From Victivallaceae bacterium (GTDB lineage: Bacteria; Verrucomicrobiota; Lentisphaeria; Victivallales; Victivallaceae): a stretch of DNA of 64,000 nucleotides. The position numbers and the translations under genes are program-made. Below, piece after piece: positions 26,078 to 43,321 of the stretch (its first letter is position 1; every line of letters begins with the position of its first letter). The stretch is taken from positions 1 through 64,000 of the forward strand of contig JAKIUY010000008.1 of NCBI GenBank assembly GCA_021647315.1. The letters are read 5' to 3'. The notes under the pieces were generated by a model. That model saw nothing but the letters and a program-made list of their open reading frames with translations, did not search any database and was not told where the DNA came from.

Positions 26078-28747
26078 CTACTTTAGTGTTGCGATGGATT
26101 CTTCAACCCGTTTCAGTTTCATTTCCAGTTCATTCAGATGTTCGCGAGCCTCGTTGATGACTTTTTCAGGTGCTTTGCTCAGGAATTTTTCATTCGAAAG
26201 CTTTGCCTGTGAACCTTTCATCCAGCCAAATATCTGGTTTTGTTGTTTTTTTAGTTTTTTCAGCTCGTCATCAATGTTGATTAAACCTGCAAGCGGCAGA
26301 TAAATTGTACCGGCATTGACGATTTGAGCCGGTGCCGGACCGTCCTCATGCATAAACTCGGCGGTTGAAATTGTTACTTCTGCCGCATTGAGCATCAGTT
26401 TAATTCCGGCAACCTCGCCCTGCATAAATTGTTCAGTTTCAGTATCTACTGTCTTGAGATGGTAGTTAATCTTCTTGCCGGGTGGTATTTCATATTGGGC
26501 ACGCAGCGCACGACCGGCTCTGATCAATTGGAATTTTGCTTCGACCAAGTCGATGATATTCGGTTCAGGATTCATGATTGACGGAATCTCTTTGTCTTTC
26601 AGTGGTTTCGGATAGGCTTCGTTCATGATCGATTCACCCTCAGTCAGGAATCCCATCTGATGCGCCAGCTCTTCAGTAATAAACGGCATAAACGGATGCA
26701 GTAGGCGCAATATTTTGAACAGGATAAAGTCAAGCACGACCAACGTCTGCTGTTTTGACGCTTCATCGCCGTAGAGCCTGACTTTGGACGCTTCGATAAA
26801 CCAGTCACAGAATGAACTCCAGACCATCTCATAAATCTCGTGGGCTGCCAGATGGAATTTGAAATCATCCAACGCTTTATTAATCATAATGATGGTTTCG
26901 TCCATCCATGAAATAATCCATTTTTCATCAGCGGTGAGTTTTGCGTGATCGATAGAGTCCAGATTACGGAAGCCGGCAGTTACCGATCCATGCATCTGAC
27001 GGAAACGGCAGGCGTTCCACAGTTTATTGGCAAAATTACGACCCAGTTCGCATTTTTCGTTGCTGTAACGGATATCCATACCAACCGGAGCGATATAGAT
27101 GATGGAAAAACGCAGTGCATCGGCTCCATAGGTATCAATAACATCAAGTGGATCAGGTGAATTTCCGAGTGACTTGCTTAGTTTACGCCCCTGGGCATCA
27201 CGGATAATACTGGTGAAATAGACATTTTTGAATGGCAATTCATCCATGAATTCATAGCCGGCCATAATCATTCTGGCAACCCAGAAAAAGATAATATCCG
27301 GTCCGGTGACTAGGTCACTGGTTGGGTAGAAATATTTGAGTTCTTCAGTTTTTTCCGGCCAGCCTTGAACGGAAAACGGCCAGAGCCATGAACTGAACCA
27401 GGTATCAAGCACATCCTCTTCCTGGCGCCAGTTATCGCCTTCAGGCACTTCCAGACCGACAAAAATCTCATCAGTTGCATCGTTATACCAGGCCGGAATG
27501 CGGTGTCCCCACCAGATTTGACGGCTGATACACCAGTCCTGAATGTTTTCCATCCAGTGAAAATAGGTTTTTGACCAGCGGGCAGGGTGGAAATTTATTT
27601 TACCGTCACGTACGGCAGCAATCGCCGGTTTTGCCAACTCTTGCATATTGACAAACCATTGAGCACTGATCATGGTTTCAATCGGCACGTCGGCGCGTTC
27701 GGAGAAGCCGACATTATGGGTGATCTCTTCAATTTTAACCATTAGATCAAGTTCATCAAGCAGCTCAATAACTTTTTTACGACAGGCAAAACGATCCATG
27801 CCTTCAAATTCCGCGCCGGCTTTGGCATTCATCGTCGCGTCATTGTTCATCACGGTGATGAATTCAAGATTGTGCCGCTTGCCCACTTCAAAGTCATTCG
27901 GATCATGGGCCGGGGTTATTTTTACACAGCCGGTACCTTTTTCAGGATCCGCATGCTGATCTGCGATAATCGGAATTTTACGGCCGGTCAGCGGTAGATC
28001 AATAGTTTTGCCAATTAGAGATTTATAACGTTCATCGCCCGGATGGACTGCGACAGCACTGTCCCCAAGCATGGTTTCTGGACGGGTCGTGGCAATTACC
28101 AGGTGCCCTGTGCCATCTGACAACGGATATTTGTAGTGATAGAATTTACCACTGACATCTTTATGGATAACCTCTTCGTCCGAAAGCGCGGTTTGAGCCA
28201 CCGGACACCAGTTGATCATGCGTTGTCCACGGTAGATGTAACCTTTATTGTACAGTTCAACGAATACTTTTCTGACCGCATCGCTGAGCCCGGCGTCCAT
28301 GGTGAAACGTTCCCGCTCCCAATCGCAGGCAGTGCCGAGTTTTCGCAACTGTCTGATAATGGTGCCGCCACACTCTTTTTTCCAGTTCCAGACGGTTTCG
28401 ATAAACTTTTCTCTACCCAGTTCATCGCGTCCCGGTTTACCGGCTTCACGCAATGTTTTTTCAACTTTTGATTCAGTAGCGATACCGGCATGGTCGGTGC
28501 CGGGATACCAACATACTTCGTAGCCCTGCATTTTTTTCCAGCGAATCAGAATATCCTGCAGGGTATTATTCAGCACATGTCCCAAATGAAGAATTCCGGT
28601 AACATTCGGTGGTGGGATAACAATTGAGTAAGCCGGTTTATCAGGATTTACTTTGCCATGAAAACAGCCGCTCGCTTCCCATTTCGGGTACCATTTATTC
28701 TCTACCGCCCCCGGCTCGTATGCTTTGGGCATCTCATTGTTACTCAT
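26078..28747 (-). CDS. valS: Valyl-tRNA synthetase
   Basis: 889 residues from the ATG at 28747, chosen because GGAGAG lies 9 bases upstream; the frame is open further to 28792 without support. Class I signatures are PPNVTGILHLGHVLN (HIGH) and GRKLSKSLGN (KMSKS). The editing domain has TTRPETMLGDSAVAVHP, and the tRNA-binding and C-terminal coiled-coil (LINIDDELKKLKKQQNQIFG) regions are present. It charges tRNA-Val in the cytoplasm. No T-box leader was seen. Confidence 0.97.
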   Translation of the reverse strand: MSNNEMPKAYEPGAVENKWYPKWEASGCFHGKVNPDKPAYSIVIPPPNVTGILHLGHVLNNTLQDILIRWKKMQGYEVCWYPGTDHAGIATESKVEKTLREAGKPGRDELGREKFIETVWNWKKECGGTIIRQLRKLGTACDWERERFTMDAGLSDAVRKVFVELYNKGYIYRGQRMINWCPVAQTALSDEEVIHKDVSGKFYHYKYPLSDGTGHLVIATTRPETMLGDSAVAVHPGDERYKSLIGKTIDLPLTGRKIPIIADQHADPEKGTGCVKITPAHDPNDFEVGKRHNLEFITVMNNDATMNAKAGAEFEGMDRFACRKKVIELLDELDLMVKIEEITHNVGFSERADVPIETMISAQWFVNMQELAKPAIAAVRDGKINFHPARWSKTYFHWMENIQDWCISRQIWWGHRIPAWYNDATDEIFVGLEVPEGDNWRQEEDVLDTWFSSWLWPFSVQGWPEKTEELKYFYPTSDLVTGPDIIFFWVARMIMAGYEFMDELPFKNVYFTSIIRDAQGRKLSKSLGNSPDPLDVIDTYGADALRFSIIYIAPVGMDIRYSNEKCELGRNFANKLWNACRFRQMHGSVTAGFRNLDSIDHAKLTADEKWIISWMDETIIMINKALDDFKFHLAAHEIYEMVWSSFCDWFIEASKVRLYGDEASKQQTLVVLDFILFKILRLLHPFMPFITEELAHQMGFLTEGESIMNEAYPKPLKDKEIPSIMNPEPNIIDLVEAKFQLIRAGRALRAQYEIPPGKKINYHLKTVDTETEQFMQGEVAGIKLMLNAAEVTISTAEFMHEDGPAPAQIVNAGTIYLPLAGLINIDDELKKLKKQQNQIFGWMKGSQAKLSNEKFLSKAPEKVINEAREHLNELEMKLKRVEESIATLK

Positions 28748-29063
28748 ATCTAAAAACTCTCCAAAATTTATATTTAATACCCTTTCGGGCAAAATTCAGT
28801 ATCATTGTTATCTGTTAAAAATCTATCTTCTCAGGGATATATAAAATGTCAAATCTATAATATAGCATAAAATTAGATATTTTAAATACGGACAATGATA
28901 TTAAATCAGTTCCAGGTATCGCTTAGAGTGTCGGGCCTGTTTGATGTTAAAATTACGAAGCAAGTGAATCGTGTTTAAATTCAATGGTGGCTGAAAAGAA
29001 AAAAATAACCTCAGATTTATTAAAATCTAATATCAATGCTGTAATTTATGAAAACAACTGACC
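28748..29063. other. Gap between valS and the defence island
   Basis: About 315 bases, AT-rich. On the minus strand TTGACA near 28840 could be a -35 box for valS but no good -10 follows. CCC-GAAA-GGG (about 28781-28790) is a small tetraloop hairpin in the valS leader. The remaining sequence next to the RadC stump shows no RadC coding in any frame and no att-like repeats that could be recognised. Confidence 0.4.
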
Positions 29064-29195
29064 TTATAGACATTTTGTCGTACTTTTACCGAGAAGCAGA
29101 GCCAGTAATTCTTCATCTACCAAATGCGTAGAGCCATTGGCTAGTAGCTTTTCGCGAGGTCGTTCGTTTTTAGAAAGGTCTTTTATCTTTTTCAT
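29064..29195 (-). pseudogene. Truncated RadC N-terminal fragment (43 codons)
   Basis: The product starts MKKIKDLSKNERPREKLLAN and continues GSTHLVDEELLALLLG before an abrupt STTKCL end at a TAA. This is the conserved N-terminal domain of ordinary RadC proteins, which normally exceed 200 residues; the helix-hairpin-helix and JAB (HNHPSG) parts are absent downstream. Its ATG overlaps the RES gene stop as ATGA (29192-29195), so it would be translated with that operon. It is probably a remnant left when the island inserted or was rearranged. A separate full radC stands at 47800. Confidence 0.8.
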
Positions 29196-30223
29196 ATTTT
29201 TATTTTTTGTTTAAGAGGGGTTATTTTTGTATCAGTAATAATAAATGACTCTAGTTTTGTCGCTGTTAATAGTGAATCATCAAAAAATACGTAATTGTCC
29301 CCTGCTTCCAAAGAACTTTTGAAGATAATTCCGTTAAATGTATTATTTTTTATTAATTCACAAAGATATTGTGTTGGCAAATATTCTAATTCCTTTCTAT
29401 GAGGTAACACTGGTTGAGACAGTGATGCACTAAGGTGTTCTAAAAATGGCATATGTTCTTCATATAAGAGAATGAGACTATCGTCATCGAGACCAAATGG
29501 TGATATTGTTTTTTTAGGTTTTCTCAGATCTATTAGAGATATCTTCTTTATAACTTTAAATTTGGCAACAAAAACATTATCACTTTTATAAGGTCTAGTT
29601 TCTGCAATTGCAGTTTTTTGATCGCTGGCACCATAAAAATATGAAATGCCTTTAGGATTAGCACGACCATCACAGGATTTTACAGGCGGGGGGGAACTCA
29701 TTTGATCTAGTGAAAATCCTCCAGTTTCTCGATTTATTCTTGCTCGGTAAATGTCTTTTGGGTTTTCTGCTTTTTGTATTATTAGATAATCAAATAGTTC
29801 TGTTAATTGGGATGTTTTAATTGTATTTTTAGGAAAAAATCTATTCTCATGTTTAAGCTCATTTACGAAGTTATTCCATTGACTGATTGATGATTTATTT
29901 AAAGTTAACCTTGATGTGAATTTTATGTTAGGTATGTTTATGTTGCCTGTTATTTTTACCAGTAATTGTAATTGGCTATGATTGTCTATTTTTTTAGAGA
30001 ATATGTGCCAATCAGAATGCAGTAATTGGTTAAGTAATTGTCCTTTAGTATTCTCTGTATATAAATCAAATAGAGGTTGGAATAAATCGAGCAATTCAGC
30101 AGGGACTATCAGTGGAAAATGTTTTCTTGTCTTGCAAAAAGAACATTTACCTCTTTTTTTGCTAACTGCATTAATATGACTTTTTAAAAAATAATCAGAA
30201 AAACAATTTGAACAGCAATACAT
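29192..30223 (-). CDS. RES-domain protein (NAD+ phosphorylase/NADase-like toxin) with zinc-finger N-terminus
   Basis: 343 residues. Residues 4-30 hold C4-x2-C7 and C27-x2-C30, a zinc finger as in RES proteins with an HEPN/RES N-terminal domain; about 40-150 are helical. The RES domain starts at YRARIN (Arg160/Arg162), continues with GISYFYGASDQKTAIAETRP (Glu208), and ends near GIIFKSSLEAGDNY (Ser303/304), the three residue types the family is named for. RES toxins degrade NAD+. The usual Xre-type antitoxin is absent; instead the gene starts one base after the sce7725-type gene. This suggests the NADase is the effector of the sce7726/sce7725 module. Confidence 0.82.
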   Translation of the reverse strand: MYCCSNCFSDYFLKSHINAVSKKRGKCSFCKTRKHFPLIVPAELLDLFQPLFDLYTENTKGQLLNQLLHSDWHIFSKKIDNHSQLQLLVKITGNINIPNIKFTSRLTLNKSSISQWNNFVNELKHENRFFPKNTIKTSQLTELFDYLIIQKAENPKDIYRARINRETGGFSLDQMSSPPPVKSCDGRANPKGISYFYGASDQKTAIAETRPYKSDNVFVAKFKVIKKISLIDLRKPKKTISPFGLDDDSLILLYEEHMPFLEHLSASLSQPVLPHRKELEYLPTQYLCELIKNNTFNGIIFKSSLEAGDNYVFFDDSLLTATKLESFIITDTKITPLKQKIKI

Positions 30224-30224
30224 A

Positions 30225-31172
30225 TCAATTTTCTCGCTGTATGAAGTTTGTCATTAATTCAATATGATGTTGCATTGAGAGCTTTTTCACCGTGCCCAGC
30301 CCAGGGTAATGTTGCTTTTTGTACAGGTCAATATACTCTGTACAGGCAGTAGATTTGTATATTAAAGAGTTTGGTTTATTTATTTCACGGACAAGCTTAT
30401 TCAGGGCTTCTAAAAATTTACCTCCTGGGTTGGTAGGGGAATCAGTCTGGTCGGAGATGAAGTGATAGATAAACATATCATCATCAGTTGCAAGATAGGT
30501 CAAATGAATAGCTACAGCATAAGCAGGGCCGCCAGTTTCTGTATAATCATCACCAACAATCAGATAATCGCCAAAGCCATCCATCCCCTCATCGGGGTAG
30601 GTTATATGTAAGTCTGAAAAATGTTCGCTTTCTGGATATAGAGAATTTTTCTTTTGCGCTTTAAAACCATTTCTGATTAAAATACGTTCAATATCATCTT
30701 TTTTTAGATGCCTTTGATACAATTTCCCTGCAAAGCCATCAATAAATATATGGCGTTTGATATTTTGATGATGGGCAATAGTTGCAGCGACAGCTGTACC
30801 ATTTGAATAGCCATAATGAATGAGAGTAAATGTTTTATCATAATATTTATCTAAACAGGCCGATAAATCTTTTAGATTTGATTTAGCATCCAGGATATAG
30901 CCGATAGAGATATTATTAAAATCATTAAAATCGGTATCAATAATATCACTAATACTTGTAGATGATACAGGCTCTTTTCCTGCTAAAGGATTGATGATAA
31001 GCGTACAGCCGATACTTTGCTCGTTAATGACTTTCATTGCGCGTCTTAATGCTGAAAAATCATTTTTAACCGGTTCGATAATCGGATGTATATTATTTTC
31101 TGCTAATAAATCAGCATTATCCCGAAGTAGTATTAATTCAAATTGTTTTCCTCTTAAATATGGATAATACAT
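30225..31172 (-). CDS. sce7725-family protein
   Basis: 315 residues starting MYYPYLRGKQFELILLRDNA, the hallmark of the sce7725 family named from Sorangium cellulosum. It looks like a TIM-barrel-like alpha/beta protein (IHPIIEPVKNDFSALRRAMK, TLIINPLAGKEP, SIGYILDAKS, FTLIHYGYSNG, HIFIDGFAGK). Biochemical function is not known. Family members are typically encoded next to sce7726 proteins, as here (12-base gap upstream, one-base gap to the RES gene downstream). It may be a sensor or regulator of the flanking nuclease and NADase-like proteins; that is inference. Confidence 0.75.
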   Translation of the reverse strand: MYYPYLRGKQFELILLRDNADLLAENNIHPIIEPVKNDFSALRRAMKVINEQSIGCTLIINPLAGKEPVSSTSISDIIDTDFNDFNNISIGYILDAKSNLKDLSACLDKYYDKTFTLIHYGYSNGTAVAATIAHHQNIKRHIFIDGFAGKLYQRHLKKDDIERILIRNGFKAQKKNSLYPESEHFSDLHITYPDEGMDGFGDYLIVGDDYTETGGPAYAVAIHLTYLATDDDMFIYHFISDQTDSPTNPGGKFLEALNKLVREINKPNSLIYKSTACTEYIDLYKKQHYPGLGTVKKLSMQHHIELMTNFIQREN

Positions 31173-31184
31173 ATAATCTCCCTA

Positions 31185-32075
31185 TTAGATTGATTGTGGC
31201 ATAAGTATTGAGCGAATATCTGTTGATAACCTCGATATTAGTTCCTGCATTTTTGATTTTTCATTGCAAATGCTTACTCCATAAGCAGATAATGATGATG
31301 GGGCTTGGGCGATGAATTCCTTCAATATTTTTGTTTTCCCACGGGTTTTAAGAATGTTAATGGTCAAATCATGTGCTGTTTCAGGAGAGTTTTCACAAAA
31401 CAGTTTTTTACACTCTCGGTATATTTGCGTATTGGGGACATCCGGTATAGTTCCATAACATGATTTGATAATGGATGTATATTCATTTTTGCGTAAAGAA
31501 TCGAATAATATATTTGGGTTGATATTTTTCTTATTTGATTTTGGCCCACGTATTGTGGTAATTGTATTGCTGTTATTAAGCATGAGAATACCTGTGTTTT
31601 CAGGTAAAATGGAGTTTAATTTATCTGCCTGTGCAGGGGATGTTATGACGTTTATATAATCAAATATTTCAAAATAAGTTTGTACTTGTTTCGCAAGTCG
31701 TGCGAAAGAGTCATATTCAGATTTTATTTCATAAACAGTAGATGTCCCATTTAATATAACAACATCCGCTTTACATTTGCCTACTCTGAATTCGGTCAGC
31801 ATGTGTGAGGTATTCAATGAGTGTTTTCCGAGCAGGATTTTATTGGCAATGACGTTTTTATAGATATATTCATTGCGATAATTTTTATTAAGGATATGAT
31901 AGATCCAGTCAAAGAACTGGGCAAGGGTCATTGAATTGTCAATTGTTTTAAGCAAACCGCTATTTAGACAGACCTCTGACAAATAGCTGGAATAGCCTTT
32001 TTGAGCAAGGCTATCCATTACTATTGGACTGAAAACTCGTCCTAAAGCTGATAAATATTTTTTATCTATTATCAT
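31185..32075 (-). CDS. sce7726-family protein, PD-(D/E)xK nuclease-like
   Basis: 296 residues. A nuclease-fold core is visible: Glu95 (TEFRVGK), Asp104 (ADVVIL), Glu116-Ile-Lys118 (VYEIKSE), the D...ExK arrangement of PD-(D/E)xK enzymes. The start is the ATG at 32075 with AGGAG upstream. It opens a tight three-gene set (sce7726, sce7725, RES). It is separated from the DUF262 gene by 93 bases carrying a 10-bp inverted repeat and a possible promoter, so it could be expressed apart from the restriction genes. DNA or RNA cleavage is likely but not shown. Confidence 0.75.
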   Translation of the reverse strand: MIIDKKYLSALGRVFSPIVMDSLAQKGYSSYLSEVCLNSGLLKTIDNSMTLAQFFDWIYHILNKNYRNEYIYKNVIANKILLGKHSLNTSHMLTEFRVGKCKADVVILNGTSTVYEIKSEYDSFARLAKQVQTYFEIFDYINVITSPAQADKLNSILPENTGILMLNNSNTITTIRGPKSNKKNINPNILFDSLRKNEYTSIIKSCYGTIPDVPNTQIYRECKKLFCENSPETAHDLTINILKTRGKTKILKEFIAQAPSSLSAYGVSICNEKSKMQELISRLSTDIRSILMPQSI

Positions 32076-32098
32076 GTTTTACCACTCCTATCACATCT

Positions 32099-32149
32099 AT
32101 AATAACTCATAAATCTATTATTGCAAAAATCTTCTTTCGTTTATGAGTT
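32099..32149 (-). promoter_or_regulatory. Internal promoter candidate within a 10-bp inverted repeat ahead of the sce7726 gene
   Basis: AACTCATAAA (32104-32113) and TTTATGAGTT (32140-32149) are perfect inverted arms around 26 bases. On the minus strand TTGCAA (32126-32121), 16 bp, TATTAT (32104-32099) resembles a sigma-70 promoter whose start would fall about 17 bases before the sce7726 ATG. The arms could form an mRNA hairpin or bind a dimeric regulator. On the plus strand a T-run follows the second arm. Confidence 0.45.
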
Positions 32150-32168
32150 TTTTCTAGCTACTTTAGCT

Positions 32169-34439
32169 TTAGCTATCACCTATTTTTAAGACCTTATTAA
32201 ACCACAGTATTGCGGCTTCACCTTCTTTTTGTACAATCTCATCTGCAGAACGACTATGGCGAATACAGTTTCGTAATTCTGCTAGTTGATTGAATTTATG
32301 ATTCAAAGTTTCTTTATTGCTAAACAATTTTTGAAATATTGACCATAAACTTTTAGAAATCATTACCTCTTGTGCTTCTCTTAAGTCAAAAAACTCCAAA
32401 AGACCACTCAGTTGTGTGTATTTGTCAACGTCAAAGGCTGGGTTTTTCTTTGCAGCATTTTTAACCTTTTCATCAGCTTTCAGTTTTAAATGATGTGGTA
32501 GGCTTGAAATGTTATTATCTAAATTTTTAACTATGGTATCTCTAATTATGAGCTCTATTTTTTCAATGCTTTTATCCATATCTCTTAGTTTTGGCGATAA
32601 GTCAAGTCGTTGCTTGATAAGCAAGTTTTCAATAGCATCTTTGATATTTTTTTGACGTATTGAAATAAACTCATCAAAATCATTTTCTGAAAATGGGGAT
32701 CTGAGTAAAATTTTAAAGCATTTATCATAAATAAAGTGTGATTCCAGAATGCTTTTAATTGCTTGTTCTCCATTTTGTTTTATTAATTCAGGTAGATATT
32801 CATTTGGTAATCTATCTTTAATTAGATTTCGATTGGTATTCGACGTTAGTGGTAAACGATTAAGAATAGTATGCCATTTACCATTTTTAAGATTTTTCTT
32901 GCCCCAAGAGTCTGGCACAATATGATGGTCATCTATTTCATTGTTTTGAGGTATATTTCCGCTTATCCAATCACGAGCGCCATTGATTACAAATAGATTA
33001 AAAATGCCATTGTAAATAGATGAACCTTTTTTTGTCTCTTTTATTAAGTCAAGTTCACGAAATCTTGATTTGAATTCTTGAATCACTGATACAATAGCAT
33101 CATCATTTTTGAACCATTCTATCATGTCCAGGTAGTCTCTTGTGGTTGTCGATTCTACCGAACCCGAGTAGCGGTTCGTGAAAACTGAAGCCCAATACCA
33201 TTGTCTGAATTTTCTTTGTGCTTCAAGACGACTTGGTGCGGGAATATTATTTACAGCATGCTGAATAGATGCAAAAGCAGGTAATATCGAAATATATGGT
33301 AGATATTGTGATGAAGTCACACCGTATTCATGTGGGTGCTGTAGTAATTTGATTGCAGATGCAACAGTATTTACTGCATTATTCCAATGCGTTTGAAAAT
33401 CATCAGGGGTCTTCATTAATATTTCTTTCTTGCGGGAGCCGTCAGACTCTCTTATCTGTTTTTCCTGACCGGGTAATAAATAGTATAGATACTTTGGGGA
33501 ACAATACCCTTGACGCAATATTGACATTACTTGTAAGACATATACGTTCATTTTTTCTGTTTCAATAAAATTTAGTCTAGGAGCAACCTCACGCCACATA
33601 TGTTTTAATTGTAGTCCTTTCGGTTTTAATAATGCGTTTATCAGGTCAAAAACATCGAGCCTTATACCCTTGCTGTTGATTTGGGTAAAGATATCACATA
33701 CCTTATCAACAGCCAATTCCACATCAAGCTCAATATAGGCAATTTGGTAGTCTTGTGTAATACCTTTTAGATGTCCTCCGAAGTCTTTGGCATTTTTAAC
33801 ATTTTGTTTTGCAATATTTAACTTCTCACTGTCTCCAGTAGCAGTTGCTTTGTTAACTTGTTCTTCCCAATGTTTTTCATAACCTTGAACCCAGTTCGGT
33901 AATGCCCATCCATCAGCACCGACGATAGACAAGGGGAAAAAATGTTCTGCATATTGTACTTCCGGGTTATCCATAATCCGCTTGAAACGTTTTGTAAGCC
34001 AATCATATTGAAAGGCATCATCATATTGTTCATTTATAAATTTGTCGACACGTATAAAATATACCGCACGGCTTGCACGGTTTGGCAGGCTGACATTTGG
34101 CGCAATAAATGTATAATACAACGCAGTTAATCTTTGCTGACCGTCAAGCACAATATACTCAGGTTTTCCGTTGCCGTATGTCCATGGCTTTTCGCCTTTA
34201 GTATCTTCAAATCCGTAAATTGCTTCGCAAGACAGAGCATTGAAATTTTCTTTTTTACCTTTCCAAAGCAGTAAACTACCGATGTAATAGTCCAGGAAAA
34301 TAGATTTAATAAGCTCCTTGATATCCCAAGGTTTCCATTCAAAATCTCTTTGAAAGTCGGGAATGACAAAACGTCCTTCTTTTAGTCTTGTAATTAATGC
34401 GTTTAGACTTAAGTGGTCTGGTTTTTGAACATCTCTCAT
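32169..34439 (-). CDS. DUF262 protein with HNH-like nuclease and C-terminal HEPN-like domain
   Basis: 756 residues. The N-terminal DUF262 (GmrS/ParB-like) domain has IPDFQRDFEWKPWDI (27-41) and VLDGQQRLTAL (97-107), where the DGQQR motif binds nucleotide in related GmrSD/BrxU enzymes. An HNH/DUF1524-like motif DDHHIVPDSW (503-512) with LTSNTNRNLIKDRLP follows. The last 100 residues are helical and end in LAELRNCIRHSRS, with R723-N-x3-H728 matching the HEPN RNase signature. It overlaps hsdS by four bases (ATGA), so it is made with the restriction subunits. Likely an accessory restriction effector with both DNase and RNase parts; this is inference from motifs. Confidence 0.82.
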   Translation of the reverse strand: MRDVQKPDHLSLNALITRLKEGRFVIPDFQRDFEWKPWDIKELIKSIFLDYYIGSLLLWKGKKENFNALSCEAIYGFEDTKGEKPWTYGNGKPEYIVLDGQQRLTALYYTFIAPNVSLPNRASRAVYFIRVDKFINEQYDDAFQYDWLTKRFKRIMDNPEVQYAEHFFPLSIVGADGWALPNWVQGYEKHWEEQVNKATATGDSEKLNIAKQNVKNAKDFGGHLKGITQDYQIAYIELDVELAVDKVCDIFTQINSKGIRLDVFDLINALLKPKGLQLKHMWREVAPRLNFIETEKMNVYVLQVMSILRQGYCSPKYLYYLLPGQEKQIRESDGSRKKEILMKTPDDFQTHWNNAVNTVASAIKLLQHPHEYGVTSSQYLPYISILPAFASIQHAVNNIPAPSRLEAQRKFRQWYWASVFTNRYSGSVESTTTRDYLDMIEWFKNDDAIVSVIQEFKSRFRELDLIKETKKGSSIYNGIFNLFVINGARDWISGNIPQNNEIDDHHIVPDSWGKKNLKNGKWHTILNRLPLTSNTNRNLIKDRLPNEYLPELIKQNGEQAIKSILESHFIYDKCFKILLRSPFSENDFDEFISIRQKNIKDAIENLLIKQRLDLSPKLRDMDKSIEKIELIIRDTIVKNLDNNISSLPHHLKLKADEKVKNAAKKNPAFDVDKYTQLSGLLEFFDLREAQEVMISKSLWSIFQKLFSNKETLNHKFNQLAELRNCIRHSRSADEIVQKEGEAAILWFNKVLKIGDS

Positions 34440-35692
34440 CTTTTAGGTTTCCTTTTAACTTGCTTTTTTGTCTTTTTCAAAGCTGATTCCATTTTTGCTT
34501 TTTCTACCTGAATTCGTGCAAGCAGTTTTTCGGCGGGCTCGTCGTTGGGATCTTGTGGCACCAATTCACCCCGGAAGGCTTTGGCTAGGACGGATTTTGA
34601 TAGTTTGTCTAGTGTTACAAGTAAATTATTTTTCCGGCTATTTATTTTTGAGAATACATTTAGAATTTTTTCAGCCTTAGCTTGTTCTGCAATTGGGGCA
34701 ATGGGCATTTTGATTTTTACTAGATTTTCGTAATAGAGGCGTGAACGCACGCTACCTTGGGTATTGTGGTTAATTTCGAGTAACCCCTGATTGCTCTTGA
34801 GGTATTTTAATAAGAGGGCAGCAGATAATCCTTTTATTGTATGGAATACAACATAATCTGGGCTAGTGATACATTTTTCTTTCCCATTATAGATGGCAAT
34901 TGAGCCAATGTTTACTCTCATTGGATTATAGATGAAATCGCCAGGATTAACAATTTTGTATTTTGAGTAGTCTTTTGCACTACTTCTTAAATCTGTTATG
35001 CCTTTATCTTTATTTACCCCTATTTTTCTTAAATGTACTTGGGTTTTGCCACATCTTTCATTGCATTCACAACAGTATTTTGCTATTTTTTTTATACTAT
35101 ACTGTTTGCCGGATGAATATAAAAACGCTAAGAGAATTTGCGTTTCCAAATCACTAACTTTATCCAAACGCTCTTTGACTGAATCAATGCGGGGCATGAT
35201 TTTGTCCAACTTGGCGACAATGCGCCTCTGTTCGTTGAGGGGGGGGAGGGGGAGGGGGGCTTTGGAAAATTTACTTTTGTTAATAATAGACAGAGTAGTT
35301 GCAGAAGACTGCTCATTCAACCATTTTTTTAGTCCCAAGCATGCATAATAGCCAAATTTTGGAATAACATACTTATCAATGAATTGAATGGAGTTAATCT
35401 GTTGATTTGTCGCAAGTTTTTTGCCAGCGATACCTACACGACCAATTTTCCCGATACAAGTAATTAACACAGCATTTTTATCCAACAAACGAGCTATCTT
35501 TCCTCCTTTAAAAGAAATCATCTCTTTGGTTGATTTTATTACTGCACCATTCTCTAAATCAGCAGGTTTTACAAATAGTATATCTGTCCCATAGTTTTCA
35601 ATGTCTCTTTTGGGTGGTGTGTTACCTGTTGATATTATACCTAAATTTTCAAGTATTGTTACAGTCCATCCAGCTGAAAGCGTTTCTTTCAT
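34436..35692 (-). CDS. hsdS: Type I restriction-modification specificity subunit HsdS
   Basis: 418 residues with two target-recognition domains, each followed by a coiled-coil spacer: LPPLNEQRRIVAKLDKIMPR (after TRD1) and IAPIAEQAKAEKILNVFSK (after TRD2). The tail LAKAFRGELVPQDPNDEPAE is typical of HsdS. It determines the DNA sequence recognised by the HsdMS methylase and HsdRMS nuclease. A G8-A-G5-A-G6 tract (35239-35259, plus strand) encodes the PLPLPPL segment in the central spacer and could slip. The start abuts the stop of a 48-residue ORF, with GGGGGG as ribosome binding site; the end overlaps the DUF262 gene. Confidence 0.95.
   Translation of the reverse strand: MKETLSAGWTVTILENLGIISTGNTPPKRDIENYGTDILFVKPADLENGAVIKSTKEMISFKGGKIARLLDKNAVLITCIGKIGRVGIAGKKLATNQQINSIQFIDKYVIPKFGYYACLGLKKWLNEQSSATTLSIINKSKFSKAPLPLPPLNEQRRIVAKLDKIMPRIDSVKERLDKVSDLETQILLAFLYSSGKQYSIKKIAKYCCECNERCGKTQVHLRKIGVNKDKGITDLRSSAKDYSKYKIVNPGDFIYNPMRVNIGSIAIYNGKEKCITSPDYVVFHTIKGLSAALLLKYLKSNQGLLEINHNTQGSVRSRLYYENLVKIKMPIAPIAEQAKAEKILNVFSKINSRKNNLLVTLDKLSKSVLAKAFRGELVPQDPNDEPAEKLLARIQVEKAKMESALKKTKKQVKRKPKR
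35239..35259. repeat. Homopolymer tract in hsdS (G8-A-G5-A-G6)
   Basis: The tract lies in the hsdS coding region just after the first recognition domain. Gain or loss of one base in the run of eight would shift the frame and give a half-length HsdS with one recognition domain. Homopolymers in hsdS are known phase-variation sites in other bacteria; variation here is not shown. Confidence 0.7.
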
Positions 35693-35839
35693 TTATTTGC
35701 CCCCCATGTTACTCACTCGTATTTTAAATTTAAGCAAGTTTTGATCGCCCGCTTCGTGGCTAAAAAAATGACACAGTGTGTCCTGTTTGGGCTTCCCCTC
35801 ATTTTTTTTACCTGATTTTAAAAGGTTACCTACTGTCAT
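35693..35839 (-). CDS. Small ORF of 48 residues between hsdM and hsdS
   Basis: This reading fills the whole hsdM-hsdS gap. Its ATG (35839-35837) overlaps the hsdM stop as ATGA and its TAA (35695-35693) directly abuts the hsdS ATG. A very strong ribosome binding site, GGAGGAGGT, lies at the end of hsdM four bases before the ATG. The product starts MTVGNLLKSGKKNEGKPKQD and ends KFKIRVSNMGGK: basic, no membrane helix, no helix-turn-helix, no family recognised. It may be a small modulator of the restriction complex, or mainly a coupling device that carries ribosomes from hsdM to hsdS. Confidence 0.65.
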   Translation of the reverse strand: MTVGNLLKSGKKNEGKPKQDTLCHFFSHEAGDQNLLKFKIRVSNMGGK

Positions 35840-37245
35840 CGTACCTCCTCCGTATCAATCAAAGCTAGAATCTCCTGCAGTTCGTCGACACAGGCATTGA
35901 GTTCAGTAATTGCATCACCAGCCAATTCATGGGGTTCGGGAAGCGAATTGGGGTCTTCAAGGCTATCATCTTTGAGCCAGGTAATGTCAAGGTTGAATTT
36001 GCGGGCTTTAATTGCTGCCAAAGTAAATTTACGGAAGCGTCCCGCTTCGCCAAGCTCTTTGCGCTTTGACTGCCCATTAGGATCTGACCCGTAGCACTTT
36101 TGAAAATCCTGAAACATTTCCGCGGTTAAAGGGCGGTCTTTTTTAGTCACACCGGGAATATTAGTCCGGCAATCATAAATCCACGTTGCTTCTGTCATCG
36201 GTCCCTTTTGAAAAAATATAACATTGGCTTTTACTCCTTGACTGTATGGGGTAAAGGTGCCGTTGGGTAATCTTAAAATTGTATGTAGGTTGCAATCTTC
36301 CATCAAATATTTAAAGACATCGCCCGCCTCGTCAGAAAACAGCACATTATCCGGTAATACCATTGCCGCACGTCCTCCAGGGGCAAGAATAGTGATAACA
36401 TGTTGAATGAAATTGAGCTGTTTATTACTGGTAGAAACGGTGAAATCATCGCGTACCGGAGCCTGGTTTGCCCCTTTTGTGCCGAATGGCGGATTGGTCA
36501 GGATGCATTCATAACGTTCGCCGCGATCCGTTTCGTAGATACTATCGCCAAGATAGATCTGTGGTTCAAGGCCGTGGAGAAAAAGATTCATCAGGGCAAG
36601 TCGTCGTGGACGTGGAACCAGTTCCTGACCGTAATAGGTCTCTTGCTTGATTCGTTTGACAATCTTCCTGTCTAAAGCCCCTTTGGTTAGTGTCATCAAC
36701 CATTCGTAGGCGACCATTAAAAAGCCGGAGGTACCGCAAGCCGGGTCACATATTTTATAGCTTTTTGCGACTCGCGGGTCGGGCTGCATTACCTTGACAA
36801 TAGAGGCGATCAGTGGACGCGGGGTAAAATATTGGCCTGCCCCTTTTTTCCCTTCAGCGGCCGATTTTTCCAATAGTCCTTCAAAAGCTGCGCCTTTAAC
36901 ATCAACATCCATCGAAGACCAATCTTCCACATCAATCATATTGATAACTTTTTTCAGATTGACCGGATTGGTAAAGCGTGGCATTGCCTGGGTGAAAATA
37001 TCGCCTAGGATACCGGTTGAATCACGAAGTTTACGCAATATCTCGGCATAATGGTCAAGCAGTTCAGTGCCGGAAAGTTCAAGAATGCTATTCCAATTAT
37101 AATCATCTTCAATCTCAATACCTTTTTCATCAGCCATTTTCAGAAACATCAGATAGGTTAATTGTTCTATATAATCTCCATAGTCAATTCCATCGTGACG
37201 TAAGGTGTGGCAAAAGCCCCAGAGTTTATTTACGACATCAGCCAT
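35836..37245 (-). CDS. hsdM: Type I restriction-modification methyltransferase subunit HsdM
   Basis: 469 residues. The helical N-terminal HsdM domain (1-125) is followed by GAGQYFTPRPLIASIV (136-151), S-adenosylmethionine motif I CDPACGTSGFL (166-176) and catalytic motif IV TNPPFG (250-255), which mark an N6-adenine methylase. It methylates host sites and forms the core of the HsdRMS complex. AAGGAA precedes the ATG. It lies 19 bases after hsdR and overlaps the small ORF by four bases. Confidence 0.96.
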   Translation of the reverse strand: MADVVNKLWGFCHTLRHDGIDYGDYIEQLTYLMFLKMADEKGIEIEDDYNWNSILELSGTELLDHYAEILRKLRDSTGILGDIFTQAMPRFTNPVNLKKVINMIDVEDWSSMDVDVKGAAFEGLLEKSAAEGKKGAGQYFTPRPLIASIVKVMQPDPRVAKSYKICDPACGTSGFLMVAYEWLMTLTKGALDRKIVKRIKQETYYGQELVPRPRRLALMNLFLHGLEPQIYLGDSIYETDRGERYECILTNPPFGTKGANQAPVRDDFTVSTSNKQLNFIQHVITILAPGGRAAMVLPDNVLFSDEAGDVFKYLMEDCNLHTILRLPNGTFTPYSQGVKANVIFFQKGPMTEATWIYDCRTNIPGVTKKDRPLTAEMFQDFQKCYGSDPNGQSKRKELGEAGRFRKFTLAAIKARKFNLDITWLKDDSLEDPNSLPEPHELAGDAITELNACVDELQEILALIDTEEVR

Positions 37246-37264
37246 ATTTTCGATTCCTTAGTTT

Positions 37265-39925
37265 TTAAGCTGCAAGTGCTTCGTTAAGTTCATCTATTAG
37301 TGTTTTAAAATCATCGCCAAAAATAGTTTTGGCTTTGCCCAGTCCGCCATGGCGTTCAAAAATTGGCATGATGGAGAAATCATCTTCATTAATAGCTAGA
37401 TTTTCAATAAGGTGTTCTTTGATGAATGCGATCCAGTTAAGTTGTTCATCATTAAAATCATGATTTTCAGTTATTTTGGCAATTGCCGCTTCAACTCTTT
37501 CTGGTGCGGTTAGAATAGGCAGATGTTTGTCAGAGGCATATTTAATCATTGAGATTATAGCGGCCAGTGGTTTGCGATGAACCAACTCATGACCGCGTTG
37601 GAGATCCTTTTCCGAAAAATCATTTTTCCGCAGTTTATCCCGCAACTCATCTAATGCAGCAGTGTTCCAACTGTTCGGTTTGCTTAGTAGAATTTCAATA
37701 GCCTCAATCTGTTCAGGATTATCTTTGACAAATTTTTCAAATGATTCCAGGTAATCTTCAGGTTTCTGAAAATCACCATCGACTCTGAACATCACCTCAT
37801 CTTCTACTTCATCCGTAATATCATAGCCTCTAAAGAAAACCTTTTTAGGGCGTGGATAGTTGACCAATAGCTCTTGGAAACCCCTATTTTTTAACAGCTG
37901 CATAGTGTCGGTGAAATTATCGGCAAGATTTGCTTTAAGTTGATCAGTATAGGCTTTTATATCGCCGTCAGGAATATATTTGGCAAATGCTTCACGTGCT
38001 TCGGAACCCATGTTTTTTTCAATTCTTCTGAGGCGTTTTATTAGTACGGTTATATTGTATTCCCGATCTCGGTTATCATAGATGCGTTCAATAATTTCAG
38101 CGATTGGAATAGTCGCTTTTGTCAACGTAACATTAAAATCGGTTGCGCCTTTAAAATATTCGATTAAATCGCCGTTAAAACAGTCAAAAATGGTAAATTT
38201 TTCTTTATTAATCTCCTCACACAACCGTGTACCACGTCCGAGCATCTGAACCCAGAGGATACGCGATTTAACCATTCGCATAAAGACCACCATCTCTATG
38301 GCGGGGATATCGACTCCAGTTGAAAGCATATCAACCGTCACAACAATTTTGGGCTCTTTCCTGTTTCTGAACTGGCGTATCTTCTGCAAAGGACGATCTA
38401 CAGTTCCGGTAATTTTAGTGACAAAGTCATCGCCTTGCTCAAAAACCTCTTTACAGGTTTTAACAATCTCATTGGCATGTGATATGTGAGGTAGGTCATT
38501 GACGGCAAATATCAAAATTTTCGGGAAACGTTTATACTCTTTTTCGTGTATATCGGTATATTGCTTCAAGGCTTTAATGATCTTATTGATACTGTCAGGT
38601 GAAGTTATTTTTTCTTCAATTTCATTGGCGGAGAATTGCCGTTCGCCTTCGAGTTGATCCAAGGTCTCAGCCCCAGTTCCAGTGTCAACCTCACCCACAA
38701 GATCACCCTCTTTCAGAAACGTGCCATTAATATGGATGTTTGATTTTATTTTTACGGCATCATAATCAACCAGAAAACCATCTAAAACGGCCTGTTCTGT
38801 ACTGTATGAGTATACCTTATGTTTGAACATTGCCAGTGTATGAGTGGCGGGGGTTGCGGTAAGGCCGATTTTTACTGCATCGAAATAGTCCAAAACATAT
38901 TTCCAGGTACTGCTTTCTTTTGCAGAATATCCCCGATGACATTCATCAGCAATAATAACATCAAAAGCATTAATGGGGATATCCAGTTTGTCTGCATCAA
39001 AATCACCGTCAAAGTTTTCCAGAGCTGTGTTTCCCAACAGATTAATAGACATTCGCTGAATAGTAGATACATAGATAAATGCATGTTTCTCCTGCGGCGT
39101 GGTTAAATATTCTTCAGGTAGAATTTGTGGATTAAATGTAGTGTCTCCGTCAAAATCTTCACGTCTGAACTTTTGACTGTAAACTTCATATTCTTTATCA
39201 AGTTTAAGTCCACTAAGTGTCTCGAAAGCTGAAATCGCCGAGACCGTTTGCGCCGCTAAAACTCTTCGGTCAACGAGAAAAAGTATTCTTTTGGCATAGC
39301 CTGATTTTAACAGACGATATATTGAAGAGATAACTGTAAATGTTTTGCCAGTTCCGGTTGCCATTGCCATGAGCATTTTTATCTTTCCATTAGTCAATGC
39401 CTGTTCAGTAGCCTCTATTGCCTTGATCTGGTAAGGTCTTAGACGGGTAATTTGGTTGACAGGATTAGCTTGAAACCACGCTTCTGCTACTTGAGTCTTT
39501 CTTTTAAACTTATCAAACAGTGCTTGTGGTGAATGAAAATCACTTAATTGATATGAGCTGTTTTCTTTTTTTCTTACATCCAGAAAAAATATTATTTCTC
39601 CATTTGTTGAGTAGAGGAAAGGGACTTTGTATTCACGCCATTCACCAATGGTATTGGTGACACTTTTTGAATAGCGCTTAGACTGTTCAAGGACATTAGC
39701 GCCTGTTGAGATTTTTTTTGCTTCAATAATACCCAGTAATTTTCCTTTGACAAACAGCGCGTAATCAGCTGGTCCAGTTGTAGTTGGATATTCTTCTACC
39801 GCATGTGCATCTAAACAAGATATATCCAGCCCTTTTTTATAGGGAGTTATTGTCCAGTTTAACAATGAAGATGTTAATTTCTTGTCAATTCTATTTTTTC
39901 TGGTTATTTTTTCTGATTCAGCCAT
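37265..39925 (-). CDS. hsdR: Type I restriction endonuclease subunit HsdR
   Basis: 886 residues from the ATG at 39925; the frame is open back to a TTG at 39946 that lies inside a palindrome. The N-terminal nuclease has Asp54 and Glu68-x-Lys70 (PADYALFVKGKLLGIIEAKK). The translocase has Walker A MATGTGKTFT, DECHRGYS, GLTATPA, and MLGRGTRLCEEI. It cuts unmodified DNA after ATP-driven translocation. It is the first gene of the island operon. The ribosome binding site is weak, which would keep the nuclease level low. Confidence 0.95.
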   Translation of the reverse strand: MAESEKITRKNRIDKKLTSSLLNWTITPYKKGLDISCLDAHAVEEYPTTTGPADYALFVKGKLLGIIEAKKISTGANVLEQSKRYSKSVTNTIGEWREYKVPFLYSTNGEIIFFLDVRKKENSSYQLSDFHSPQALFDKFKRKTQVAEAWFQANPVNQITRLRPYQIKAIEATEQALTNGKIKMLMAMATGTGKTFTVISSIYRLLKSGYAKRILFLVDRRVLAAQTVSAISAFETLSGLKLDKEYEVYSQKFRREDFDGDTTFNPQILPEEYLTTPQEKHAFIYVSTIQRMSINLLGNTALENFDGDFDADKLDIPINAFDVIIADECHRGYSAKESSTWKYVLDYFDAVKIGLTATPATHTLAMFKHKVYSYSTEQAVLDGFLVDYDAVKIKSNIHINGTFLKEGDLVGEVDTGTGAETLDQLEGERQFSANEIEEKITSPDSINKIIKALKQYTDIHEKEYKRFPKILIFAVNDLPHISHANEIVKTCKEVFEQGDDFVTKITGTVDRPLQKIRQFRNRKEPKIVVTVDMLSTGVDIPAIEMVVFMRMVKSRILWVQMLGRGTRLCEEINKEKFTIFDCFNGDLIEYFKGATDFNVTLTKATIPIAEIIERIYDNRDREYNITVLIKRLRRIEKNMGSEAREAFAKYIPDGDIKAYTDQLKANLADNFTDTMQLLKNRGFQELLVNYPRPKKVFFRGYDITDEVEDEVMFRVDGDFQKPEDYLESFEKFVKDNPEQIEAIEILLSKPNSWNTAALDELRDKLRKNDFSEKDLQRGHELVHRKPLAAIISMIKYASDKHLPILTAPERVEAAIAKITENHDFNDEQLNWIAFIKEHLIENLAINEDDFSIMPIFERHGGLGKAKTIFGDDFKTLIDELNEALAA

Positions 39926-39938
39926 ATTGTCACATTTT

Positions 39939-39952
39939 ATACACAAGTGTAT
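39939..39952. promoter_or_regulatory. Palindrome immediately upstream of hsdR
   Basis: ATACAC-AA-GTGTAT is a perfect 6-bp-armed inverted repeat ending 13 bp before the hsdR start; on the minus strand it overlaps a TATAAA-like box. It may be an operator limiting restriction-gene expression. No matching regulator is evident in the island. Confidence 0.35.
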
Positions 39953-40117: not shown

Positions 40118-43100
40118 TTATGAACAGCTTTTTTCGTAGCGGGGTTCTACTGCTTCTCGGGCTGGTAATGGCCCGCCATTCCATGTCTGGTGCCATAAAC
40201 GGCGCAGGTCATTCAATATTGCCAGTAGACATGGAATCAGGACTAACGTCAGGACGGTGGCGAACATTACCCCGAAAGCGATGGAGAGTGCCATCGGGAT
40301 CAGGAATTGAGCCTGCATACTTTTTTCGAGAATCAGTGGCATCAGTCCTGCGGAGGTGGTCATGGTGGTTAACATGATCGGTCTGAAACGGCGTTTGCCG
40401 CCTTCGCGTAATGCTTCAAGCAGCGGAGTGCCTTTGCTGAGGCGCAGATTGATCCCTTCGATCAGGACAATGGCGTCATTGACCACAATGCCGGTCAGGG
40501 CGACCATGCCGAACAGGCTCATTATTGAGATTGAACGTCCGAACAGCACATGGCCGACAACTCCACCGACCAGACCGAAAGGAATGGTGGTCATAATTAC
40601 TGCCGGTTGAATGTATGATTTGAACATTGAGGCAATAATCATATAGATACCGAACAGGGCGATTGGGAACCAGGTGAACAGGCTGTTTAATGAGTCACGG
40701 GTTTCCTGTGATTCACCTTTGGTACTGCAGGTAACATCGTAACGGATCAGGAGTTCAGGTATAAAATTATCCATCAGGTCATTCATGATTTCTGTCGAGT
40801 TGAAGTTATCGGAAATATCCGCCTGGACTAATATCTTCCGAGCACGTTCAGAGCGTCTTATCGTACTTTGTCCTTCACGAACTTCGATATTTGCAACTGT
40901 GGTTAATGGTACCCGGGCACCGCCGGGAACATTGATGCGCATCCGTTTAAAGTAGCTGATAGAATTACGGCCATTTTTTTCTGGGAATCTGATTTTTACT
41001 TTTATATCGTCTCGGCCGCGTTGAATGCGCAGGGCTTCAGTACCATAAAATCCGCCTTGAATCTGATAGGCCAGATCTTTCAGGGTAAGGCCTAAATTAT
41101 AGGCTTGCGGTCTGATTTTGACGATAAATTCACGTTTGCCTGGCGTATAATCGGTCTGTTCGTCAAATACACCTTCATAAGTGCGTAGTTTTTGGATCAG
41201 TTCATCTGAAGCGGTCAGTAACTGATCAACGTCGTTGCTTCTGAGTTCAAATTCAATCGGCATCCCACCTGGACCTTCACCGCGGGCTTTGAAATTAGTC
41301 TTATCGGCGCCGGGGATGGTGCCGACAATCTTTTTCCATTGATCGAGCAGTTTGCGATAGTGAATGGTTCTTTGTTCTGAAGGAATCAATTCAATATTGA
41401 CCTCAAACTGTTCAGAACCGCCAGCTGTTTCACCAAATTTTATGGTATCACCAATCAGAGCATAAACACCGACGGTGAGATTTTCGCCGCTTGGCACGGT
41501 GGTTTTATTATGATTATTGCTATTAACTTTATCCCAGCCTTTCATCACCTGCTGGGCGGCAGCTTCAACTTGATTTAACGGTGTACCTGGTGCCATGGTA
41601 ACTTTAGCGACTAAAAAGTCATTAGCGGTTTTTTCGAGAAATTTGAATTTGATAATACCGCTCTTTATCAAGCCACCGACCAGAGCTAAAACAACAATCG
41701 CGATACAGAGCGAAACATAACGCCAGTGCAGGGCAAAGTCGACAAACTTGCCGTATTGATGGTGAATGAAATAATCCAGGGTGTCATTGATTTTCTGTTT
41801 GATGCGCGTTGGATAACTCCATATCGAGTTATAGTTAATTTGGGTAATCTTCACCGGTAGATGACGGAGATGAACCGGTAGGATAAACAGACCTTCGATC
41901 AGGGAAATTGATAGCGCAGCAATGACCGGAATGGGGATTTGGCGAATAAATTTACCCATGACGCCCGGGACAAAGAAGAGTGGCAGAAAGGCGACAATGG
42001 TTGTTAGAACAGCGGCGATAACCGGCAGAGTGACTTCAGCCGTGCCATCCAGGGCGGCGGTCATCGGTGATTTATGATTGGTGTAACGCTGGAGATAGAC
42101 CGATTCCCCGACCACAATCGCATCATCGACAATCAGCCCAAGCACCATAATCAGCCCGAAGAGGGAAAGCATATTAAGCGAACAGCCGGTTGCCGCCATA
42201 ATAACCAAGGCACCGGCAATGGAGATGGGGATACCCATTGTAACCCAGAAACTGAGGCGCAGGTCAAGGAAAATCCATAGAGTAATAAATACCAGCAGGA
42301 GGCCGAGCCGGCCGTTGGCCAGCAGCATATTCAGGCGGCTGTTGATCAGACGTGACATATCTCTGGATTTGGTAATATGTAGTCCGGGCGGCAGGGTTTT
42401 GTGTTTTTTTGCTAAATAACGGTTGATTTCTTCGGCGATTTTTATGGCGTCTTCAGAATCTGTTTTGTAGATATTAACTGCGGCAGCCGGATAGCCGTTG
42501 AACATTGAGTGGACTTTCGCATCATCATCAAAACTGTCTTTGATATTGGCAATTTGACCTAAAGTTATAGTTGTTCCATCAGGTTGGGCAATGATCGGAA
42601 TGTCGCGATATTCTTTTGCCTCGTAGCGACGGCCCATAACCCTGATTCTGAAATCTTCTCCAGCGTTACGAATGGTTCCGGCCGGAATATTAAGACCATT
42701 ATCAGCTACAGCTCTGCTGACATCATTGAGTGTAATACCATATTTACGCAGATTTTCTTCACTTATTTCGATTGATATCTGGTAGTCGCGGGTGCCGCTG
42801 ATAAAAACCTGACTTATTTCAGGCAGGGCGACTACTTCATCTTTGACCTGACGTGCGGCCTCTTTTAACTGTCTTTCCGGCAGATCGCCCCATAAGATCA
42901 GTGCCATGACATCGCCGCGAAATTTTATTTCACGGACAATCGGCGGTTCAGCATCGACCGGGAAGGTGTTGATGGCGTCAACGGTAGTTTTGATGTCATC
43001 TTTAGCGATCAGCAGGCTGGCATTTTCATTGAGTTCAACGATCAGCCTCCCCATGCCTTCAGATGATTCTGAATAGATGTTTTTGATGCCTTCGATGCCT

Positions 43101-43321
43101 TCGACAGCCTCTTCGAGCCGCAGGCAGATGCTTTCCTCTATTTCTGCCGGATCGGCACCGGGGTAGGCGACATTAACGGTAATAATATCCAGTGAGAATT
43201 TTGGGAAGGTTTCCCGAGTCATTGATTTTGCACCCAGATAGCCGGCGACCAGAATCAATACCATCATGATATTGGCCAGCACCGGGTTGCCGAGAATATT
43301 TTTTAAGATTGCTTTTATCAT
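40118..43321 (-). CDS. RND-family efflux permease (AcrB/MdtB-like)
   Basis: 1067 residues, the full length for RND pumps. Twelve membrane helices with two large periplasmic loops are expected. Visible motifs: ILGNPVLANIMMVLILVAGY at the start, GLIVDDAIVVGESVYL in the helix-4 region with the paired Asp used for proton transfer, and GIVVNDAIVLIEGINLRL in the second half. It exports substrates from the periplasm with a membrane-fusion protein and an outer-membrane channel. The adaptor gene is immediately upstream (99-base gap); no TolC-like gene is present in the window. Substrate unknown. Confidence 0.95.
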   Translation of the reverse strand: MIKAILKNILGNPVLANIMMVLILVAGYLGAKSMTRETFPKFSLDIITVNVAYPGADPAEIEESICLRLEEAVEGIEGIKNIYSESSEGMGRLIVELNENASLLIAKDDIKTTVDAINTFPVDAEPPIVREIKFRGDVMALILWGDLPERQLKEAARQVKDEVVALPEISQVFISGTRDYQISIEISEENLRKYGITLNDVSRAVADNGLNIPAGTIRNAGEDFRIRVMGRRYEAKEYRDIPIIAQPDGTTITLGQIANIKDSFDDDAKVHSMFNGYPAAAVNIYKTDSEDAIKIAEEINRYLAKKHKTLPPGLHITKSRDMSRLINSRLNMLLANGRLGLLLVFITLWIFLDLRLSFWVTMGIPISIAGALVIMAATGCSLNMLSLFGLIMVLGLIVDDAIVVGESVYLQRYTNHKSPMTAALDGTAEVTLPVIAAVLTTIVAFLPLFFVPGVMGKFIRQIPIPVIAALSISLIEGLFILPVHLRHLPVKITQINYNSIWSYPTRIKQKINDTLDYFIHHQYGKFVDFALHWRYVSLCIAIVVLALVGGLIKSGIIKFKFLEKTANDFLVAKVTMAPGTPLNQVEAAAQQVMKGWDKVNSNNHNKTTVPSGENLTVGVYALIGDTIKFGETAGGSEQFEVNIELIPSEQRTIHYRKLLDQWKKIVGTIPGADKTNFKARGEGPGGMPIEFELRSNDVDQLLTASDELIQKLRTYEGVFDEQTDYTPGKREFIVKIRPQAYNLGLTLKDLAYQIQGGFYGTEALRIQRGRDDIKVKIRFPEKNGRNSISYFKRMRINVPGGARVPLTTVANIEVREGQSTIRRSERARKILVQADISDNFNSTEIMNDLMDNFIPELLIRYDVTCSTKGESQETRDSLNSLFTWFPIALFGIYMIIASMFKSYIQPAVIMTTIPFGLVGGVVGHVLFGRSISIMSLFGMVALTGIVVNDAIVLIEGINLRLSKGTPLLEALREGGKRRFRPIMLTTMTTSAGLMPLILEKSMQAQFLIPMALSIAFGVMFATVLTLVLIPCLLAILNDLRRLWHQTWNGGPLPAREAVEPRYEKSCS

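Follow-up and report, generated by a model that had tools for sequence, protein, structure and literature searches.

The question raised by this locus is whether a run of defence genes on one strand works as a single system or is an assembly of separate ones. The genes lie between positions 29064 and 39925 of the window, by which we mean the whole stretch of 64,000 nucleotides analysed here from a Victivallaceae bacterium (contig JAKIUY010000008.1). They comprise a type I restriction-modification (R-M) set, hsdR, hsdM and hsdS, followed by a DUF262-HNH-HEPN protein and by three genes, sce7726, sce7725 and a RES gene, referred to below as the trio. Judging from sequences and predicted models, the cluster is probably an acquired defence island, likely transcribed as a single operon and consisting of two independent modules: a composite of type I R-M with a type IV protein, and a self-contained trio cassette. 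The seam between them is a 93-bp junction. The first-pass annotation had described one composite system; a joint role in defence is plausible, but what recurs elsewhere is two separate modules.

Recomputation returned nine features on the minus strand, eight open reading frames (ORFs) and a RadC stump, with coordinates re-derived from the ORFs. From hsdR to the stump, the gaps are 19, -4, 0, -4, 93, 12, 1 and -4 bases, exactly as first annotated, and family searches agreed with the gene identities and the complete hsdRMS set given there. The features are as follows:

37265-39925, minus strand: hsdR, type I restriction subunit with a PD-(D/E)XK N-terminus, an SF2 helicase and EcoEI_R_C (Pfam)
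35836-37245, minus strand: hsdM, type I methyltransferase (Pfam)
35693-35839, minus strand: ORF of 48 amino acids in the hsdM/hsdS interval (sequence; no family match)
34436-35692, minus strand: hsdS, specificity subunit of the type I system, containing two stretches for target recognition (Pfam)
32169-34439, minus strand: DUF262 (GmrSD_N)-HNH-HEPN protein, 756 amino acids (Pfam, PADLOC, structure match, motifs)
32076-32168, minus strand: 93-bp junction between module 1 and module 2 (sequence)
31185-32075, minus strand: sce7726 family protein, predicted PD-(D/E)XK nuclease (NF033832, motif, fold)
30225-31172, minus strand: sce7725 family protein, TIM-like alpha/beta barrel (NF033831, predicted fold)
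29192-30223, minus strand: RES protein with Zn ribbon, HEPN/RES-NTD1 and RES domain (Pfam, conserved residues)
29064-29195, minus strand: radC 5' stump, 43 amino acids (TIGR00608, 8.4e-7 over 31 residues)

The independence of the trio was evaluated through sce7725 loci gathered from GTDB genomes, plasmids, phage records, E. coli genomes and viral contigs. The sce7726 gene was found upstream of sce7725 in 33 of 35 loci, with RES next in most of them; in the other two, on a Gram-positive plasmid and a Listeria phage contig, single-sequence search did not reveal it. The order of the trio and its short gaps (-20 to +24 bp) were kept in 18 loci, and the pairwise distances of the three proteins correlated with r = 0.89-0.92, as high a value being reached in 0 of 999 permutations. 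The trio is a compact, co-inherited cassette that spans several phyla and is also carried by plasmids, integrative elements and viral contigs. The closest relatives of the window trio, with 69-72% identity, are sequences from metagenome-assembled genomes (MAGs) named Aminicenantes and Neomarinimicrobiota (short metagenome contigs), which argues for movement of the trio between phyla. Its prevalence in the samples was 4/388 in the phylum of the window and 4/369 in the class of a Shewanella genome (family or DNA searches), and 18/5426 in complete E. coli genomes, counting relatives of the Salmonella sequence only. In viral contigs, a single sce7725 protein gave no match and an sce7725 alignment recovered 18 loci.

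Trios without hsd genes were observed in Xanthomonas, Geobacteraceae, Shewanella and Bacteroidales, in rhizobial and Moraxella plasmids, in integrative elements of E. coli and Salmonella and in viral contigs. Whether the trio occurs apart from hsd genes, a check proposed with the first annotation, can therefore be answered: it does in most loci. Nearly all of the 35 loci showed neither hsd nor DUF262, as judged by single-sequence searches with 61 queries, which divergent subunits could escape, and with several contigs stopping so near the trio that the absence of hsd is not proven on them. The only other case of hsd genes in the same operon (L010, 459-8673) is a Gallionellaceae MAG with the order hsdM-hsdS-DRT (RT_UG19)-sce7726-sce7725-RES; there too sce7726 is preceded by a gap of 93 bp, which is probably a coincidence. 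In a further locus (L063, 6080-12097), sce7726 and a broken sce7725 sit inside a type III R-M operon, with res on one side and mod on the other, and in another, from the order of the source organism (L061), the opposite strand carries a type III R-M pair and a GmrSD protein at a distance of a few kb. The trio of E. coli and Salmonella sits in a cargo slot within integrative elements, beside KwaB-like (Kiwa) or caspase/TIR/cyclase genes. In our reading, the trio moves independently as a mobile unit and settles among defence genes, in some cases inside R-M operons.

These neighbourhoods bear on an integrated, layered arrangement, in which the type I complex would silence both the DUF262-HNH-HEPN protein and the trio, and anti-restriction or failed restriction would free HEPN and RES as abortive effectors. 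All genes lie on one strand with overlaps, the hsdM-hsdS-DRT-trio operon offers a second example, and DUF262 recurs beside hsd. There is also the precedent of PrrC, released from its type I partner when restriction fails, and a general proposal for HEPN-R-M operons (both in PMC3710099). However, the near absence of hsd and DUF262 from the trio loci speaks against such an arrangement, and so does a DUF262 homologue of 58% identity that accompanies a different hsd family without any trio. Moreover, no operon uniting trio and DUF262 was found outside the window among the collected loci, and within the window the 93-bp junction divides them. We regard this arrangement as quite unlikely. A single new combined system was rejected, since the modules recur apart.

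Pairs of sce7726 and sce7725 without RES were found in at least three lineages, and the tree requires the presence of RES to have changed three times or more, an approximate figure as one locus (L003) was scored as carrying RES although that contig stops short of the third gene. Such pairs on three viral contigs (L084, L086, L087) form a separate lineage. The trio could alternatively be a toxin-antitoxin unit or a device stabilising plasmids and elements, with RES as toxin and sce7725, sce7726 or both as antitoxin. RES toxins are classic toxins of such systems (PMC9503650), and the trio does reside on plasmids and integrative elements. Nevertheless, the RES-less pairs persist, an antitoxin would not usually keep an intact nuclease motif as sce7726 does, no Xre gene is present and the neighbours include defence genes, which makes this explanation very improbable.

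Regarding the individual proteins, sce7726 matched NCBIfam NF033832 (5.8e-58, 195.8 bits against a cut-off of 70), and its residues D104, E116-I-K118 and Q130...Y134 were invariant in 11 of 11 relatives. Its predicted model (predicted local distance difference test, pLDDT, 87) found as best structure match 3dnx (3.1e-4), itself of restriction-endonuclease-like fold, followed weakly by SfsA and NucS. We predict that sce7726 is a PD-(D/E)XK nuclease with a restriction-endonuclease-like fold. The PADLOC model 'cll' also matches it and could not be traced to any named system. The sce7725 protein matched NF033831 (2.4e-96, 323.1 bits against a cut-off of 60) and is predicted to fold as a TIM-like barrel (pLDDT 82, predicted template modelling score 0.83). 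The RES protein carries a CxxC...CxxC ribbon at its N-terminus and a Pfam RES domain (1.3e-14, 55 bits against a cut-off of 23.2), the latter shared by 11 of 11 relatives, while HEPN_RES_NTD1 was recognised in 10 of 11 family members (best 1.8e-7). Neither sce7725 nor this RES protein is covered by a model in PADLOC 2023, and no ORF for an Xre-type helix-turn-helix antitoxin was found in the window trio or in the recurring trios.

We infer that the second module acts as a self-contained three-gene anti-phage cassette. In it sce7726 would act as a PD-(D/E)XK nuclease; sce7725, which accompanies sce7726 in all lineages seen but two, would probably be a sensor or regulator; and RES would be a second effector depleting NAD+. 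Since no Xre antitoxin is present, what keeps RES in check before infection may be its own N-terminal domains or else sce7725/sce7726. Tentatively, and with a little less assurance than an even chance would give, we propose that the trio is an undescribed stand-alone anti-phage system. Its TIM-like barrel would sense infection and fire the nuclease and RES, the latter being optional on an sce7726-sce7725 core, and R-M operons would have repeatedly acquired it as a downstream second line.

In the first module, the type I set looks complete: hsdR, hsdM and hsdS are adjacent and full-length with all their domains, and the nuclease, Walker A and NPPF motifs are present in the translations. The hsdR product matched Pfam ResIII (8.5e-36), EcoEI_R_C (2e-35) and HSDR_N (1.5e-7), as well as NCBIfam PRK11448 (2.5e-173, under the cut-off of that model); its start is ATG, with an alternative TTG start possible at 39946. 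The hsdM product matched N6_Mtase (6.8e-59) and HsdM_N (9.3e-12), and that of hsdS matched Methylase_S (1.3e-33) in two stretches. The 48-amino-acid ORF overlaps hsdM by 4 bases and abuts hsdS with no gap; it had no family match and no relative in any fetched locus, and it may be a small regulator or what is left of a gene since deleted.

The DUF262 protein, whose start overlaps hsdS by 4 bases, matched Pfam GmrSD_N (6.8e-32), with the DGQQR motif present as VLDGQQR. It also matched the PADLOC models HEC-05 (7.5e-23), PDC-M55C and PDC-M34B, and the BrxU-type structure 7p9k (2.1e-8). PDC-M34B covers the C-terminus (2.2e-5), although the domain content of that model could not be read. An HNH-like motif (DDHHIVP...N...N) is kept in the homologue of 58% identity, and the C-terminal HEPN-type Rx4-6H motif reads RNCIRH here and RNGIRH there. 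In Pfam there was no match to GmrSD_C (DUF1524) even at E 10, only a weak one to AHH (0.12), and none to a HEPN family. The HNH and HEPN labels are thus suggested by these motifs and by a 2013 HEPN survey, which lists the same architecture (PMC3710099). The description of this protein as having three toxin-like domains was loose, since DUF262 is an NTPase or sensor-type domain in GmrSD, BrxU and SspE (PMC10952713). We suggest that the type I enzyme would cut unmethylated incoming DNA, and that the GmrSD/BrxU-like protein would handle DNA escaping it, for example modified phage DNA, by nucleotide-driven sensing, HNH cutting and a C-terminal HEPN RNase.

A phylum-wide search returned one close DUF262 homologue, the one of 58% identity. 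It follows hsdM-hsdS-Shedu-hsdR, a type I operon different from that of the window; with a Shedu gene (SduA_C) embedded in it, this locus (L058, 1343-11061) is a further example of a stacked type I operon. Among nine DUF262-homologue neighbourhoods, four contained hsd genes, that of the close homologue and those of 3/8 distant relatives, the latter arranged as hsdM-DUF262-hsdS (in a genome of the same family), hsdS-DUF262 and hsdM-hsdS...DUF262. Two of the four hsd-linked homologues lie within 25 bp of hsdS (L107, L109). A scan of viral contigs with the single DUF262 protein gave no match. The expectation, set with the first-pass annotation, that DUF262 or sce genes would recur next to each other or to hsd genes was borne out for DUF262, whereas the trio mostly stands without hsd and shares an operon with DUF262 nowhere else. 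A looser explanation is bystander clustering, by which independent defence genes, that for DUF262 included, would share an island and a transcript with no functional link. Variable accessory genes (AAA ATPase, VapC, kinase) beside related plasmid hsdM genes would agree with it, and so would the varied junctions among the DUF262 neighbourhoods. We consider it unlikely, however, because hsd and DUF262 are repeatedly adjacent and complementarity has been published for such pairs (TgvAB, PMC11411939), which suggests at least a benefit of linkage.

Several observations weigh against the two-module reading and the functions assigned in it. The nine DUF262 neighbourhoods are a small set, taken as the best matches rather than sampled at random, and eight of the nine homologues are just 25-30% identical. 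Some trio loci (Xanthomonas, Moraxella, Rhizobium) adjoin metabolic genes, which fits a stand-alone cassette and gives no signal of defence. RES is not always required, as the RES-less lineages demonstrate. Finally, the role given to sce7725 is a guess from its fold and co-occurrence, and the fold match is non-specific: the model retrieved weak generic TIM-barrels and one phage protein of unassigned function, and no specific relative.

As for the junction, it holds a 10-bp inverted repeat, AACTCATAAA...TTTATGAGTT, 25 bp apart and just upstream of sce7726, which is a possible operator. No terminator-like site was found in the 93 bp and the promoter-like site was weak, in scans that scarcely rose above shuffled sequence in this AT-rich stretch; RNA structure was not unusual (z -1.33). 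Given the lack of a terminator-like site, the whole cluster could possibly be on one transcript. The GC content of the stretch falls to 32-42% against 42-46% in the surroundings, which suggests acquired DNA. The radC stump, whose start overlaps the RES stop by 4 bases, is a remnant that marks the end of the operon; no kin of it appeared in any fetched locus, and a complete radC is found elsewhere in the window (47800-48474). The flanking genes, both identified by sequence, are valS (26078-28792) and an RND-type transporter gene (40118-43321). A pre-insertion site at valS was sought in eight relatives, and the genes adjacent to valS differed in each genome, leaving no clean state.

Second systems embedded in type I operons are already established (PMC11411939, PMC12255303, PMC3710099), so that the clustering is in itself ordinary and the layout alters little. 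In V. cholerae VPI-2, the GmrSD-like pair TgvAB is embedded in a type I R-M operon, and homologues of GmrSD often occur in type I loci (PMC11411939); the DUF262 neighbourhoods described above agree with both. RloF of C. jejuni, cited in the same paper, is a GmrSD-like gene in or near an hsd operon. What the window has in common with these is a type IV protein of DUF262/HNH type whose gene belongs to a type I R-M operon. Unlike TgvAB, it has a single protein, encoded downstream of hsdS and extended by a C-terminal HEPN motif. The VNG7073-type DUF262 (ParB)-HNH-HEPN proteins listed in the 2013 survey (PMC3710099) have the same three-domain order. BrxU/HEC-05 and SspE share the DUF262 N-terminus, but the window protein has the extra HEPN and is linked to type I R-M and not to BREX, Hma or phosphorothioation. 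Another NAD+-using toxin system within a type I operon, DarTG2 of enteropathogenic E. coli (PMC12255303), differs in being an ADP-ribosyl DNA toxin with its antidote, sited between hsdS and hsdR. With regard to PrrC, the effectors of the window are not ABC-HEPN proteins.

Of greater interest is the trio, a compact nuclease/TIM-like/RES cassette found in several phyla and beside Kiwa and caspase/TIR/cyclase genes. A full-text search of the open-licence literature returned no name or functional study for it, and a subscription or preprint description is possible; the five papers that mention sce7725 or sce7726 are, judging by title and abstract, genome reports and not studies of these proteins. 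Zn ribbon-HEPN/RES-NTD1-RES proteins with the domain order of the window RES are listed in the 2013 survey (PMC3710099), in whose relevant passages sce7726-sce7725 partners are not described. The trio shares with RES-Xre modules a RES domain predicted to consume NAD+; in contrast to them, it has fused N-terminal domains and nuclease and TIM-like partners in place of an Xre antitoxin, and it raises the question of how a RES toxin is controlled without one.

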